DNA of 28,236 nucleotides from a virus. The position numbers and the translations under genes were made by a program. The stretch lies in the IMG/VR virus record IMGVR_UViG_3300025168_000483, positions 1 through 28,236 of that record. One strand, written 5' to 3'. The notes beneath the pieces were generated by a model that saw nothing but the letters and a program-made list of their open reading frames with translations, was not told the DNA's origin and did no database searches. Of this stretch, positions 20,931 to 26,978 are shown in pieces. Every line of letters begins with the position of its first letter. Position 1 is the stretch's first letter.

Positions 20931-20967
20931 AAAAAGGGGTTGAGATTTTTGTTCTCTCCCCTTTTTT
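20931..20967 (-). terminator. Intrinsic terminator after large terminase gene
   Basis: On the minus strand AAAAGGGGAGAGA pairs with TCTCAACCCCTTTT around an AACAAAAA-like loop, with a small bulge. It is followed by TTTTTAAAAC and overlaps the terminase stop codon. The poly-A on one side and poly-T on the other would let it work in both directions. It separates the presumed early and late units. Confidence 0.72.
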
Positions 20968-22178
20968 TATTGCACAAAATACTTGCCAGCATTAGGATTG
21001 TCTAAGTGATAAATGACGTTGTATCTAATTGCGTCTATTGAATGATTCCAATTGTCAATATATAATTTCGACCCCTTGTCCTGATAGGCATAATTATTCA
21101 GCTCTTTAGCTATGTTAGTTGATTCAGGAGTTACTACCAAATGATAATCTTGCATCCTAGTTATTCCACTTTCAATAGTTCCTTTTTTAACTGGCTTAAT
21201 ATTAACCCCTAAATGTCTAAGGTCTGCAATAAGTCTTGGTTCGCTACTATCAGCAATACAAAGTGTATTATCTACTTTATCTAAAATGATTGCAGCTAGT
21301 TCGTGTGATTTTAAACCATTACGATAAACTTCTTCTTTAAGATATATCTTTTTATGCTTCTTATCAATAGCAACAGAAATTAAAGAATCAGGATCTATTG
21401 AGAATCCGAAATCAAGACCACAAGAAACTTGTAAGTTGTCAGGATTAAATTCTCCAATACTCCAGTTGTCAAATACGACTCCTTCGGCACGGTCTAACCA
21501 GCCACCCATAATTTTGTGAGTGTACTTCTTAAAGTTAGTATGCTTTATACTCTTAATACGCTCTAGGAAGCTCTGTGATAGATTATCTTTGTTGTCTAGG
21601 TATGTACTGTGTATGTAACACACATTGTCTTTAACGCCATTAAAACCACCTTCAACGCCTTTGCTCTCAAAAAACCTGTCATATATCCAATGTTCTTTTG
21701 TAACTGGGTTTAATATAAGTATGATTCTATTCTGTATATTCTTTTCTCTAATACTAAGGTCTATTGTATCAAAGATGTTTTCATCAATAAGTTCTTCAGC
21801 TTCGTCTAATACCCAAGTGCTTATGCCTTGTAATGACTTTAGACTTGCAGTCTGGTTTCCTGCTGAAGTTCTTATACCTCTAAATAGTATGTCAGAGTTG
21901 TTGCTTTGATTTAATACTTCAGCTTTGTTAATACTAAAGACATCTTCAAATCCTAACAGCCCTATCTTTTCTAAGAACTCAGGGATGATTGATAAGTGAG
22001 CTGATGTCATTGTGAATCTTGTAAAGAGTATTCTAATACCCTTTGTCATAGTAAGTAAAGTTAGAAAGACTGTAGCAGCAAAAGACTTTCCTGAACCCCT
22101 ACCGCCTGTGATTATGAAGTACCTAGCTTTAGACTCAAAGAGTGGGTTGTATTTCTTATTCAGTATCAGTTTCCACAA
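20967..22178 (-). CDS. terL: Terminase large subunit
   Basis: A 403-residue protein, a usual length for PBSX/Terminase_3-type subunits. The Walker A motif GGRGSGKS lies at residues 25-32 and the Walker B/catalytic part TWVLDEAEE at 121-129. An ATPase coupling segment IILILNPVTKEHWIYDRFF follows. The RNase H-like nuclease domain starts at about 250. Its acidic residues are seen in GLDFGFSIDP (D256), CIADSSEP (D310) and NHSIDAIRY (D382). Both activities should be intact: ATP-driven DNA packaging into the prohead and cutting of concatemers. It overlaps the small subunit gene by 23 bases and is followed by a terminator, so it belongs to the transcript of the replication genes rather than the head genes. 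Confidence 0.95.
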   Translation of the reverse strand: MWKLILNKKYNPLFESKARYFIITGGRGSGKSFAATVFLTLLTMTKGIRILFTRFTMTSAHLSIIPEFLEKIGLLGFEDVFSINKAEVLNQSNNSDILFRGIRTSAGNQTASLKSLQGISTWVLDEAEELIDENIFDTIDLSIREKNIQNRIILILNPVTKEHWIYDRFFESKGVEGGFNGVKDNVCYIHSTYLDNKDNLSQSFLERIKSIKHTNFKKYTHKIMGGWLDRAEGVVFDNWSIGEFNPDNLQVSCGLDFGFSIDPDSLISVAIDKKHKKIYLKEEVYRNGLKSHELAAIILDKVDNTLCIADSSEPRLIADLRHLGVNIKPVKKGTIESGITRMQDYHLVVTPESTNIAKELNNYAYQDKGSKLYIDNWNHSIDAIRYNVIYHLDNPNAGKYFVQ

Positions 22179-22509
22179 ATGTTATTACAGGCATATTAAT
22201 AGCTTTGTCTCCTGAAGTTATGTCTAGCCTGTTTGTTTCATTCCAGCCAAGTCTAGTCTTAGCTGCGTGTATTACAACTGATGGCACTTTGTCTTTTACA
22301 CATTCATAATACTTAGACTTAATAAAGTCATTCTCAATGTTTTGCACTTCTGATACTGCCTTAGCAAATTCTTCATCTTCTTGAAGCCACTTGTAGAAGT
22401 TAGTTCTTGATAAGTCGCAAGACTTTAGAGCAGTTGTTATTACTCCTAGACTTGACTCTAGTGCTTTGAGTATTCTGTCTTTGTTGATTTGTGTTCTATT
22501 TTGTTCCAT
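22156..22509 (-). CDS. terS: Terminase small subunit
   Basis: A 117-residue protein. Residues 8 to 50 form a helix-turn-helix of the kind used by small terminase subunits (ILKALESSLGVITTALKSCD, LSRTNFYKWLQEDEEFAKAV). A helical oligomerisation segment follows (VQNIENDFIKSKYYECVKDK, VPSVVIHAAKTRLGW), and the tail is beta-like. It would bind the packaging site of the phage DNA and guide the large subunit. The overlap with the large subunit gene and a 1-base overlap with the glycosyltransferase gene upstream suggest tight coupling. The pair makes this call firm. Confidence 0.85.
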   Translation of the reverse strand: MEQNRTQINKDRILKALESSLGVITTALKSCDLSRTNFYKWLQEDEEFAKAVSEVQNIENDFIKSKYYECVKDKVPSVVIHAAKTRLGWNETNRLDITSGDKAINMPVITFVETDTE

Positions 22510-23366
22510 TACTTTTTATGTTTTTCATTTAATATTACAGGTATTGCATTGTTCCAGCTTACTCTATGATGTAGTCTTGACCTCTCAGTATTTAACATTG
22601 CAACCTTTACAGATGAAGGACTAAACATTACAGAGTAAAAAGATTTAACATAAGTTCCTTGACTTAAATATATTTCAGTTAGCCCTCCATCATTAGCTTG
22701 TGTGTCTGTTTGTTTTAATGAAACATTAGGTATAGTTAAAAACAAATCACCAACAGCTCCTAGTCTTGTATAAGCATTAACATCTTCATTAATTCTACCT
22801 GTAAACTTAAATGGTCTTTCTGTACTACAAAAAAAGCTATTCATACATTTTCTTTTTAGCTTTAATTCCTTTGCCCATCCACTATTATGACCACCTATCC
22901 AATCTCCATTCTGAGATAGTGCTATTGTCTTTGCAGGTATTGTTTTATAATAATCTAATACAGCTTTAAAAATATCATCTACATTATTTATATATCCTCT
23001 ACCTTTATTATAAGATAATTCCCCATTAAACCTATAACTAAAATCTGTATAATCATCATCAAGAACTAAGAAGTATTTAATACCAACCTTCTTAGCTAAA
23101 TCAAAACAAGCATTTCTTGCATACACTACCACTCTTTCATCATCAAAATTATCACCTATGTCAAATGTGTTCTTATATTCTTTTTTAGAAAACACTAGAA
23201 CTTGTTTAGTATAAAGCTCTTTGTATTTTTCTAATTGCTTATCATCATCTGAGCATATAAAATAAATCTTTCCCGTATATCCAAATCTCTTTAGAGTTTT
23301 AAGTGTCTTTATATTTTCAGACCTACCATAAGTTAAGATAAATACAGCAAAATCTTCATCTATCAT
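22509..23366 (-). CDS. GT-A type glycosyltransferase, resembling phage DNA-base glycosyltransferases (TAGT-like)
   Basis: A 285-residue protein. The N-terminal Rossmann-like part (FAVFILTYGRSENIKTLKTL, then GKIYFICSDDD) leads to ARNACF (residues 83-88) and the metal/sugar-nucleotide motif LVLDDDY (100-106). A second acidic motif, GRINEDVNAYTRLG (190-203), holds the expected base, and the C-terminal part has TQANDGGLTEIYLSQGTYVK and RLHHRVSWNN. The RN...DDDY pattern and small size fit the TET-associated glycosyltransferase (TAGT) group, described as sugar-adding enzymes for hydroxylated DNA bases in phages. No signal or membrane segment is seen, so it acts in the cytoplasm. It overlaps the ParB-like gene by ATGA and the small terminase by one base. 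Glycosyltransferase is firm; DNA as acceptor is inferred. Confidence 0.72.
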   Translation of the reverse strand: MIDEDFAVFILTYGRSENIKTLKTLKRFGYTGKIYFICSDDDKQLEKYKELYTKQVLVFSKKEYKNTFDIGDNFDDERVVVYARNACFDLAKKVGIKYFLVLDDDYTDFSYRFNGELSYNKGRGYINNVDDIFKAVLDYYKTIPAKTIALSQNGDWIGGHNSGWAKELKLKRKCMNSFFCSTERPFKFTGRINEDVNAYTRLGAVGDLFLTIPNVSLKQTDTQANDGGLTEIYLSQGTYVKSFYSVMFSPSSVKVAMLNTERSRLHHRVSWNNAIPVILNEKHKK

Positions 23367-24154
23367 AATATGCCATTCTTTTCATAAGCTGCTGCAATAT
23401 CCTTAGTAAGTTTTACATATCCTTTTTCTATAGCCTTATCAAAGTCTATTATCACTAAAGCTGAATCTTCCATAAGCTCTTGAATCTCTTTGCTTGAATG
23501 TGCATAGAAGTCTGCTATTTTACTGTAATCATAAACTGTATGTCTTAATGCACAATGAGATAAGAACATTAGTTCTTCTTCAGTTAAATCAGCTTGTTTT
23601 ATTTTATGTATAAGTTCATCTGCTTTTTTAGTATCAAATAAATCATCTATAAGAGGCTTTTCATTTTTAGGATCATAAGTTGGAGCTACTATCTTTCTTG
23701 TATATGTATCATCTTCTTCAGCTATTGCATCATCTTGATTTTCCCATACATCTAAACCATACTCATTAAGCAGAACACTATCCCAATCATTTGCTAGTAT
23801 ATCCCACTCCCATTCTCCTGAGCTAACATTGTCTTTTATGATTATTGCATCACAATATTCTAAGTAGGTTTTTGTTTCTCTTTCTTCTTCTATTGCAATC
23901 TTATTCATATCATCACAATCAGCTTGAGTAAACATATCCGTCCATATTTCCTTCTTCCCTAAATCTATTGAAGCCTTTAATCTCATATTGCCACCAAGCA
24001 CCATCATATCTTCATCAACAATAACAGGTCTTAACTTCATATATCCTGGCATTGTTCTTATGCTGTGTTTTAATGTCTTAAATTTATCATTCTTAATGAT
24101 TCTAGGATTCTTAGGATTTCCTTTGACCTTACTGATCTTAACTTGTTGCTTCAT
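23363..24154 (-). CDS. ParB-like nuclease-domain protein
   Basis: A 263-residue protein. Residues about 5 to 75 have the ParB N-terminal fold: NPKNPR, then LRPVIVDEDMMVLGGNMRLKA, where GGNMR is the usual GxxR nucleotide-binding loop. A region following KTYLEYCDAIIIKDNVSSGE with WEWDILANDWDSVLLNEYGL is seen in ParB-like proteins next to phage DNA-modification genes. The C-terminal 100 residues (FLSHCALRHTVYDYSKIADF, EIQELMEDSALVIIDFDKAI) form a helical part that I do not recognise. There is no ParB HTH for parS. It is joined by ATGA to the glycosyltransferase gene. The domain may be a nuclease, a CTP-binding switch or a DNA-targeting factor; the choice is open. Confidence 0.75.
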   Translation of the reverse strand: MKQQVKISKVKGNPKNPRIIKNDKFKTLKHSIRTMPGYMKLRPVIVDEDMMVLGGNMRLKASIDLGKKEIWTDMFTQADCDDMNKIAIEEERETKTYLEYCDAIIIKDNVSSGEWEWDILANDWDSVLLNEYGLDVWENQDDAIAEEDDTYTRKIVAPTYDPKNEKPLIDDLFDTKKADELIHKIKQADLTEEELMFLSHCALRHTVYDYSKIADFYAHSSKEIQELMEDSALVIIDFDKAIEKGYVKLTKDIAAAYEKNGIL

Positions 24155-25235: not shown

Positions 25236-25629
25236 TGTATTTATTATATAGTTTTTTTATCCCATCAAAACAAGTCGATATACAAGAACCACAATTAGTT
25301 CCTGTTCCATAATTAGTCATATAAATAGTATTGTAAAGTTCTATCATTCTTTTTTTAGCAGCTATATCTTTTGCCCTGCCTGTTTTTAAGTCTTTCCATA
25401 AGTCTAGTATTTCATCTATCATTTCTTGCGGCAAGTCATCAGGAGCTTCCATTACAAGACTTTTACCCCAATACTTCTGTGGACACTCCATTGGTGCAAT
25501 TCGTGCCTTGATTTTCATGAAACATAGACAGCGCTTACATTGTCCTAAAGTCTTTGAATAGTAAACGCATTCCTTGCAGATAGCCATTCTATCTTCATAC
25601 ACGTTATTAGGAACAAAAAACTTATTCAT
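25228..25629 (-). CDS. Cys-rich zinc-binding phage protein
   Basis: A 133-residue protein with a Cys cluster at residues 18 and 21, then 31, 34 and 36, and 49 (ICKECVYY, GQCKRCLCFMKIK, MECPQKYW). This spacing forms one or two zinc sites and is a known pattern in small phage proteins of Bacteroidota. A helical linker follows (EMIDEILDLWKDLKTGRAKD). The end has three more Cys (NCGSCISTCFDG, residues 113-120), like the tail of some phage packaging-adjacent proteins. It overlaps the sigma factor gene by 8 bases. The function is unknown; nucleic acid or transcription-complex binding is possible given the neighbour. Confidence 0.65.
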   Translation of the reverse strand: MNKFFVPNNVYEDRMAICKECVYYSKTLGQCKRCLCFMKIKARIAPMECPQKYWGKSLVMEAPDDLPQEMIDEILDLWKDLKTGRAKDIAAKKRMIELYNTIYMTNYGTGTNCGSCISTCFDGIKKLYNKYND

Positions 25630-26200
25630 CTACCAATTCTTTTTTAAGTATCTCTCTGACTTTGTCTATTGTAGTAAATAAGCTGTTACGACTGATTCCT
25701 GTTTTCTTAGCTAGTGAGTCTAGTGTATTCCCTTTATAGTAATAAAGTTCAAAAATCTGTTTGTCGTACCAATATAAATCATTTAAAACTAAGTCGATAT
25801 TGTCTAGCTTTTCAAACTCTAAATTCTTAACAGCAGGTTCTTCTGGAATATTGTAAAGATTTTTATCTGAAGAAAAAGACCCATAAACACTATTGCTTTC
25901 TAAATAAGTAACATTGCTTACCAACTCATCTATATGAGTATAGTATTTTTTATATTGATAATAAAAAGGACTTCTTGTGCTTGTTAAAGACCTTCGTAAA
26001 ACAACAGCTCCGTATCTTGTAATTCCATCCAAGCCGTCTTTCTCATATATTTTTTTTAAACTGTCTGGATTCATCTGAAGAAAATAAAGCATGCACTCTT
26101 GAACTGCATCTTCAACTTGGTCTTTATCTTGTGTAAGCCCATAGCACATTGTTCTAAACTTATCACTTAGCTTTGATATTTCAAGATAGATTTTATTCAT
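25622..26200 (-). CDS. Phage-encoded sigma-70 family (ECF-like) RNA polymerase sigma factor
   Basis: A 192-residue protein, the size of ECF sigma factors. Region 2 is visible at residues about 10 to 45 (FRTMCYGLTQDKDQVEDAVQ, ECMLYFLQMN), matching the DAEDLVQExFL core-binding helix. Region 4 is at about 145 to 190 (YDKQIFELYYYKGNTLDSLA, KKTGISRNSLFTTIDKVREI), an HTH for the -35 element. Between them is a longer Tyr-rich linker (about 90 to 130) than usual. It should redirect host RNA polymerase to phage promoters, possibly the TCTCTTATATTATA-type sites of the structural unit. It overlaps its neighbours on both sides by 8 bases. Sigma identity is well supported by order of motifs; its target is inferred. 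Confidence 0.8.
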   Translation of the reverse strand: MNKIYLEISKLSDKFRTMCYGLTQDKDQVEDAVQECMLYFLQMNPDSLKKIYEKDGLDGITRYGAVVLRRSLTSTRSPFYYQYKKYYTHIDELVSNVTYLESNSVYGSFSSDKNLYNIPEEPAVKNLEFEKLDNIDLVLNDLYWYDKQIFELYYYKGNTLDSLAKKTGISRNSLFTTIDKVREILKKELVDE

Positions 26201-26570: not shown

Positions 26571-26978
26571 TTACTCTATTCCTTTTTCTTTTTTTAATTT
26601 ATCAACAGCTTCTTTGTAATAACTTATTTTTTCTTCATAATCTATACGGCTAACCTTTACAATTGTTCTAGCTAAGAACTCTAATTCTTCAGATGTTCCT
26701 TCACCATACTTTCCTTCTAAAGCAATACCAAAACGAAACTGCTCGCCTTGTTCATACATATTACACTTCACGCATTGTACTTGGCAGTTCATTTCATTCC
26801 ATCTCGTGGAGTGATGTCTCCTCGATTGGAAATGTCCATTTTGCATTCCTGATTTGTAATGACTAATCCTTGAGCAAGTGAAACATTGTACCGAACCTTC
26901 AGCAGTTGCTTCTCTGAGTCGTATAAAAAGTGAGAACCATTTGTCAAGTTCTTTTTTAAGTTTGCTAATTGTTTTCAT
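26571..26978 (-). CDS. NinG-like recombination protein
   Basis: A 135-residue protein that matches the lambda NinG (Rap) pattern. A Lys-rich helix comes first (MKTISKLKKELDKWFSLFIR), then the zinc core with VQCFTCSRISHY (C32, C35), MQNGHFQSRRHHSTRWNEMN and CQVQCVKCNMYEQG (C69, C72). His-rich GHFxSRRHxSTRW is the strongest family signature. NinG/Rap is a Holliday-junction endonuclease that supports phage recombination. The length is shorter than the 200-residue lambda protein but normal for this Bacteroidota version. It overlaps the upstream gene by ATGA (26975..26978). Next to the DnaA- and SSB-like genes, this completes a small recombination set. Confidence 0.85.
   Translation of the reverse strand: MKTISKLKKELDKWFSLFIRLREATAEGSVQCFTCSRISHYKSGMQNGHFQSRRHHSTRWNEMNCQVQCVKCNMYEQGEQFRFGIALEGKYGEGTSEELEFLARTIVKVSRIDYEEKISYYKEAVDKLKKEKGIE

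Follow-up and report, generated by a model that had tools for sequence, protein, structure and literature searches.

The viral DNA analysed here (IMG/VR record IMGVR_UViG_3300025168_000483; the whole stretch of 28,236 bases is called the window) carries a ParB-like gene that overlaps a glycosyltransferase gene, which in turn overlaps the small terminase gene. The locus raises the question of whether these genes form one functional unit and what the glycosyltransferase acts on. The initial annotation had described the two genes as coupled to each other and to the terminase, and had suggested a system that marks DNA before or during packaging. The source record is a linear contig that may be a fragment, which limits the weight of any absence within the window. 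The features under study are as follows.

20967..22178, minus strand: large terminase subunit (TerL; Terminase_3 1.4e-31, Terminase_3C 7.5e-14)
22156..22509, minus strand: small terminase subunit (TerS; phrog_4044 6.7e-5, and position)
22509..23366, minus strand: TAGT (PF20691) GT-A glycosyltransferase, 285 aa (Pfam, PHROG, AlphaFold2 model, selection)
23363..24154, minus strand: ParB-like two-domain protein, 263 aa (phrog_620 2e-19; 4-base overlap with TAGT)
23804..24154, minus strand: its N-terminal ParB/Srx-fold domain, residues about 1-117, with GGNMR in the nucleotide-binding loop (profile and fold matches)
23366..23713, minus strand: its C-terminal, TAGT-paired domain (CTD), residues about 148-263 (pairing with TAGT)

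In transcription order, the ParB-like gene is followed by TAGT, TerS and TerL in a single overlapping run on the minus strand. The open reading frame coordinates agree with the overlaps noticed previously, namely 4 bases (ATGA) between the ParB-like gene and TAGT and 1 base between TAGT and TerS, and TerS and TerL overlap by 23 bases. A 4-base gene overlap is by itself nothing unusual in phage. Comparison with metagenomic relatives revealed purifying selection on each of the two genes (dN/dS 0.05-0.21 for TAGT and 0.20-0.30 for the ParB-like gene). Of the 123 CTD-TAGT pairs analysed in relatives, all lie on the same strand; in 107 the genes overlap, in 13 another gene lies between them and in 3 they are 3-53 bases apart. 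These results demonstrate that the coupling of the ParB-like gene and TAGT is far above chance. The window ParB-like protein (23363-24154) has about 18 additional residues just before its DNV segment, giving 263 aa compared to 245 in the closest relatives. Elsewhere in the window, the proteins encoded at 429-938, 25622-26200 and 26571-26978 gave DnaA-HTH-like and sigma-70 region 4-like matches, which are weak and stay below cut-off, as well as one to NinG above its cut-off.

The glycosyltransferase had been assigned to the TAGT group from its motifs, a surface-glycan family being the outcome that would have spoken against this. The profile search returned PF20691 (TAGT) with 120.4 bits against a cut-off of 27.5 (E = 1.3e-34, profile positions 1-204 of 205) and no surface-glycan family, and the protein also matched PHROG 842 (2e-73). 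The AlphaFold2 model (pLDDT 81, pTM 0.84) has a GT-A fold, and its top PDB fold match is GnT-I (Z 14.0, rmsd 3.9, 197 residues aligned); a PDB sequence search with the window TAGT found no relative. The motifs on which the earlier assignment was based, ARN (residues 83-85), DDDY (103-106) and NEDV (193-196), occur in the protein and hardly vary in the alignment of TAGT relatives, so that the catalytic motifs of the window protein are intact. Residues DDD 103-105 are the nucleotide-sugar/metal motif, and the conserved set comprises ARN, DDD, NED, TQ..GG, GT..K(S) and HH (266-267 in the window protein), of which TQ..GG, GT..KS and HH belong to the C-terminal half. The window glycosyltransferase is a true TAGT, and is predicted to transfer a sugar. 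In a quick tree with some long branches, all of the CTD-linked TAGTs (99/99) fell on one side of four outgroup TAGTs with an SH-aLRT of 100.

The N-terminal domain of the ParB-like protein matched the solved ParB 7bnk by profile (3.5e-10) and ParB 7bnr by fold (Z 12.4, rmsd 1.9, 92 aligned), and the Pfam ParB_N match covers residues 3-79. The GxxR nucleotide-pocket loop is present in the ParB family alignments as GGNMR or GHGR. The previous description of a ParB-like gene that keeps GGNMR, lacks a parS-type HTH and has an unfamiliar C-terminal domain was borne out: ParB_N was the sole ParB domain and no parS-type HTH was found in a Pfam scan at E up to 10, the ParB fold matches of the model stop near residue 114-124, and the CTD family follows residue 117. 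The Pfam scan also found no methyltransferase domain after ParB_N, the CTD having no methyltransferase match, and no ParA-named match occurred among the scanned window neighbours. A partition function for the protein was rejected because it has no HTH. Chromosomal and plasmid ParB proteins share the same nucleotide-binding fold, but in the ParB proteins of the module (the CTD protein, with or without a ParB domain, and TAGT) no parS-type HTH or ParB C-terminal dimerisation domain was recognised, and a glycosyltransferase adjoins.

According to a 2025 survey (PMC12704722), the ParB fold in phages is frequently joined to a DNA methyltransferase domain, and various NTPs are bound by ParB folds. 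The ParB domain of the Escherichia coli module is 53-56% identical to the N-domains of phage ParB proteins, several of which are annotated as DNA methyltransferases; the two that were checked consist of ParB_N and N6_N4_Mtase and lie upstream of TerL. The E. coli counterpart of the ParB domain also matched PADLOC MTase_II (1.5e-38) over the N-terminal part. The phage ParB-N6/N4 DNA methyltransferase fusions (PMC12704722) therefore share with the module a homologous ParB N-domain and the same site upstream of TerL, but have a methyltransferase domain where the module has the CTD and a separate TAGT. No CTD was found in the three comparison genomes (P8625, Javan141 and an Anaerosphaera phage). 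At the same pre-TerL site, Streptococcus phage Javan141 (L133, 5001-6175) encodes a ParB_N-only protein (172 aa) followed by a 225-aa ABC/AAA-type ATPase-like protein, possibly another ParB-linked module. BFVD entry M1IPF3 (363 aa), which is among the fold matches of both the TAGT and the ParB models, could be a natural ParB-glycosyltransferase fusion.

Searches of Pfam, NCBIfam and the PDB sequences found nothing that matches the CTD, which also had no fold match, the structural matches covering residues 1-116 of the ParB-like protein only, and in the plasmid collection no CTD was found at E 1e-10. Its conserved pattern is YTxKI..P.YEP...KP, followed by helices with RH.VF.Y.KIADYYAHS..Q.LME.SALVIIDFDKAIE.GY, and the positions conserved to at least 95% include Y151, P158, Y160, R204, H205, Y217, E229, D237 and G245. 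In the CTD model the helices are confident at residues about 165-235 (pLDDT 79-97) and the strongly conserved YTxKI..P.YEP stretch is disordered (pLDDT under 50). To be conserved yet unstructured on its own is as expected of a docking segment, and this stretch may be one. A divergent CTD was found in Porphyromonas phage 005b, where the order is again ParB-TAGT-TerS-TerL. The CTD is a previously undescribed domain, now assigned as the partner of TAGT.

This assignment comes from scans in both directions. A TAGT-first scan of viral contigs yielded 303 relatives, 80 of which were kept; in 74 of the 80, TAGT is preceded on the same strand by a CTD gene, either immediately or with one gene in between, and the remaining 6 contigs end within 113 bases upstream of TAGT. 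When the CTD was used as the query, TAGT was found just downstream on the same strand in 41/41 loci in bacterial genomes and downstream in 79/79 newly fetched viral loci, some of whose contigs are also in the TAGT-first set. A mirror-tree comparison of 99 non-redundant loci gave a correlation of 0.80 between the pairwise distances of the CTD and those of TAGT, against a permutation maximum of 0.16. An all-against-all comparison of 15 very different module-bearing phages and loci showed that exactly two families, the CTD protein and TAGT, occur in 15/15, the next best being found in 3-4.

The ParB domain behaves differently. In many loci the CTD protein is only about 130-150 aa long and has no ParB domain, and gain or loss of this domain accounts for 8 changes on the TAGT tree. 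TerL was found within 2 kb in 43 of 61 informative ParB-bearing loci versus 1 of 13 CTD-only loci (Fisher p 4e-5), an association that comprises only 3 phylogenetically independent pairs on supported branches. The unit is CTD plus TAGT; the ParB domain is an optional front end and terminase linkage likewise comes and goes. Thus, the overlap of the ParB-like, TAGT and terminase genes in the window stands as described in the initial annotation, but the obligate partner of TAGT is the CTD rather than the ParB domain or the terminase. Modules with a ParB domain could still mark DNA before or during packaging, but such marking does not characterise the module as a whole, and a packaging-specific role was rejected, TerL linkage being frequent in ParB-bearing loci and absent in most CTD-only modules. 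The literature searched contains no mention of a ParB neighbour of TAGT; the 2013 survey that reportedly defined TAGT lies outside that search.

The module was found in complete or near-complete phages of Lactobacillus, Nocardia and Vibrio, in E. coli/Salmonella prophages and in Haloarcula virus HHTV-2, as well as in prophage and phage contigs binned with Bacteroidota, Bacillota, Pseudomonadota, Verrucomicrobiota and others; the module probably moves horizontally. TAGT is present in 990 of 5,426 complete E. coli genomes (about 18%), in 865 of them over at least 80% of its length. It is annotated as 'hypothetical protein' in the genomes inspected (L083 and L135, Rac-like prophages), and the one E. 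coli locus that was read completely belongs to a Rac-like prophage, in which trkG and the terminase genes adjoin. In K-12 MG1655 (NC_000913 1425377-1425640; L140) only an 87-aa ParB remnant, the truncated ynaK, is left, and both the CTD and TAGT are lost. Decoration of a host surface glycan or of the capsid, resulting in seroconversion or receptor masking, is a common role of temperate-phage glycosyltransferases in general, and the module does occur in prophages. However, TAGTs 38-53% identical to each other occur in hosts whose envelopes are unrelated, ranging from E. coli to Lactobacillus and Haloarcula, and their obligate partner is a domain that can be fused to ParB. So wide an occurrence, in tailed phages of many bacterial phyla and in an archaeal virus, speaks against an acceptor that is a surface glycan of one lineage. 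Together with the family returned by the profile search, host breadth and the obligate partner make a surface-glycan transferase very improbable, and it was rejected.

The genes inserted between CTD and TAGT differ by lineage. They encode a second TAGT, giving tandem TAGT genes behind one CTD gene (L108, L115, L118, L121, L130); a class-I SAM methyltransferase (L041, L052, L054, L060, L061, L065, L066, L110); or a fusion of about 320 aa between a histidine phosphatase and a cytidylyltransferase-like nucleotidyltransferase (7 read of 15 loci with such an insert: L195, L202, L207, L220-L225, L228, L234, L238, L240, L242, L249). Tandem TAGTs are as expected of a two-sugar modification, the fusion is possibly a nucleotide-sugar donor enzyme, and the inserts look like second-sugar addition, capping and donor synthesis. 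What is inserted looks like sugar chemistry, not base oxidation.

The initial annotation had recognised no base-hydroxylating enzyme, and profile searches of the window and of 27 module-bearing records of related phages recognised none either, the TET part of these searches being weak. In the window, whose record may be a fragment, no TET/JBP, thymidylate-synthase-type, C5-methylase or N6/N4-methylase gene was found. TET/JBP (PF12851) was found in 0/27 module records, a weak test in that the intended positive control, mycobacteriophage Thibault, also gave no match. C5-methylase (PF00145) was found in 0/27, the thymidylate-synthase family (PF00303) in 1/27, the 191-kb Vibrio phage, and N6/N4 methylase in 3/27. 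The PF00303 test works, since it gave matches in 3/4 CTD-less comparison TAGT phages tested (Aeh1, 65 and henriette). The complete Lactobacillus phages c5 and jlb1 (32-38 kb) contain no candidate gene for making an acceptor, and a dedicated acceptor-making enzyme as well conserved as TAGT would have been seen in the 15-phage comparison.

These results bear on the possibility that the module TAGT is an ordinary one acting on hydroxymethylcytosine or hydroxymethyluracil, with a hydroxylase that is host-made or too divergent to recognise. The characterised TAGTs cited all use such acceptors, divergent TETs could have escaped, given the failed control, and the window record may be incomplete. However, the 15 phages have no third gene in common, yet CTD and TAGT were easily found in all of them; the two complete Lactobacillus phages offer no candidate; and PF00303 matched in three of the four CTD-less TAGT phages but in only 1/27 module phages, with C5-methylase in 0/27. 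An ordinary hydroxymethyl-base pathway is therefore considered improbable.

Comparison with the known enzymes showed both likeness and difference. The TAGTs of T-even and other T4-like phages, such as the T6 beta-glucosyl-HMC-alpha-glucosyltransferase (PF20691), belong to the same family and share the GT-A fold and the ARN, DD, NED, TQ..GG and HH motifs. According to a 2026 survey (PMC13216743), the T6 TAGT acts on glucosylated hmC DNA. T4-like TAGT phages carry a hydroxymethylase and a first glucosyltransferase, whereas neither has been found here, PF00303 matching in only 1/27 module records. The module TAGTs have DDD where those of Aeh1, phage 65, henriette and Vibrio 1.124.O have DDN, the other motifs being common to both. 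The CTD is always present in the module, but there is none in Aeh1 or henriette and only a chance-level match (0.004) in phage 65. In Vibrio phage henriette 12B8 (L138, 3001-3792), TAGT lies in a stretch without an annotated gene in the RefSeq record. The 2026 survey (PMC13216743) also reports that the TAGT is 'solitary' in 288 of 753 TAGT-bearing phage genomes, with no alpha-GT or beta-GT and so no recognised first-step glucosyltransferase, and states that the function of such TAGTs is unknown. These are probably the same population as the module TAGTs; the passages of the survey consulted name no partner for them, whereas the CTD is identified here as an obligate one.

Taken together, the ParB-like protein and TAGT probably make up a two-subunit phage DNA-glycosylation module, in which the complex, the DNA acceptor, the sugar and the purpose are inferred. 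The strict pairing, overlap and co-variation suggest that the CTD binds TAGT, and in such a complex it would hold TAGT on its substrate. The ParB-fold domain, if present, would bring the complex to DNA and may be nucleotide-switched like other ParB-fold proteins. TAGT would then glycosylate the replicated phage DNA, with a nucleotide-sugar as donor, and the sugar would shield the DNA against host nucleases or mark it for packaging. In the variant loci, a second TAGT would add a second sugar, the SAM methyltransferase a methyl cap, and the phosphatase-nucleotidyltransferase would make the module's own sugar donor. As no third gene is common to module phages, the acceptor would be something available from every host or phage, in the simplest case an unmodified DNA moiety, and it may be an unmodified base. 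Whether the CTD-TAGT pair is self-sufficient, placing the sugar directly onto a canonical DNA base or backbone position with no need of a hydroxymethylated base, can be put forward only tentatively, as a possibility a little short of an even chance.

DNA is favoured as the target mainly because the ParB domain is common to the phage ParB-DNA-methyltransferases, and the active-site residues shared with the TAGTs of Aeh1 and 65, phages with thymidylate-synthase-type genes, also argue for it. On the other hand, the TAGTs of known activity cited all use a base that already carries a hydroxyl or a glucose, and the module makes no such base; the ParB domain is not essential for acceptor recognition, since it is missing in many modules; and protein, tRNA or some other universal molecule would also be a conceivable substrate of a GT-A enzyme. 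The target might accordingly be a universal one other than DNA, either a protein of the phage or the host (RNA polymerase, terminase, portal or, in a glycogenin-like manner, the CTD itself) or tRNA, with ParB merely localising the complex. The lack of a hydroxymethyl base supplier in module phages, the conserved tyrosines in the CTD and the optional nature of the ParB domain fit this explanation, and the best fold neighbours of TAGT include the protein-glycosylating GT-A enzymes GnT-I, POMGNT1 and GalNAc-T2. However, GT-A fold neighbours tell little about the acceptor, T4-like TAGTs have matching active-site residues beyond the GT-A core, and the ParB domain is shared with DNA methyltransferases. 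A non-DNA target thus seems rather unlikely, and a DNA-glycosylation module is the preferred reading.

An obligate partner, a minimal gene set and common hosts can now be named for many solitary TAGTs, which makes the question of their acceptor testable. If the acceptor is DNA, phages would widely use a two-gene sugar modification without special nucleotide metabolism, which would bear on defence by restriction, CRISPR and DNA glycosylases. With an acceptor other than DNA, there would be a universal target of phage glycosylation, so far unrecognised. Either way, the module sits unannotated in nearly a fifth of complete E. coli genomes.
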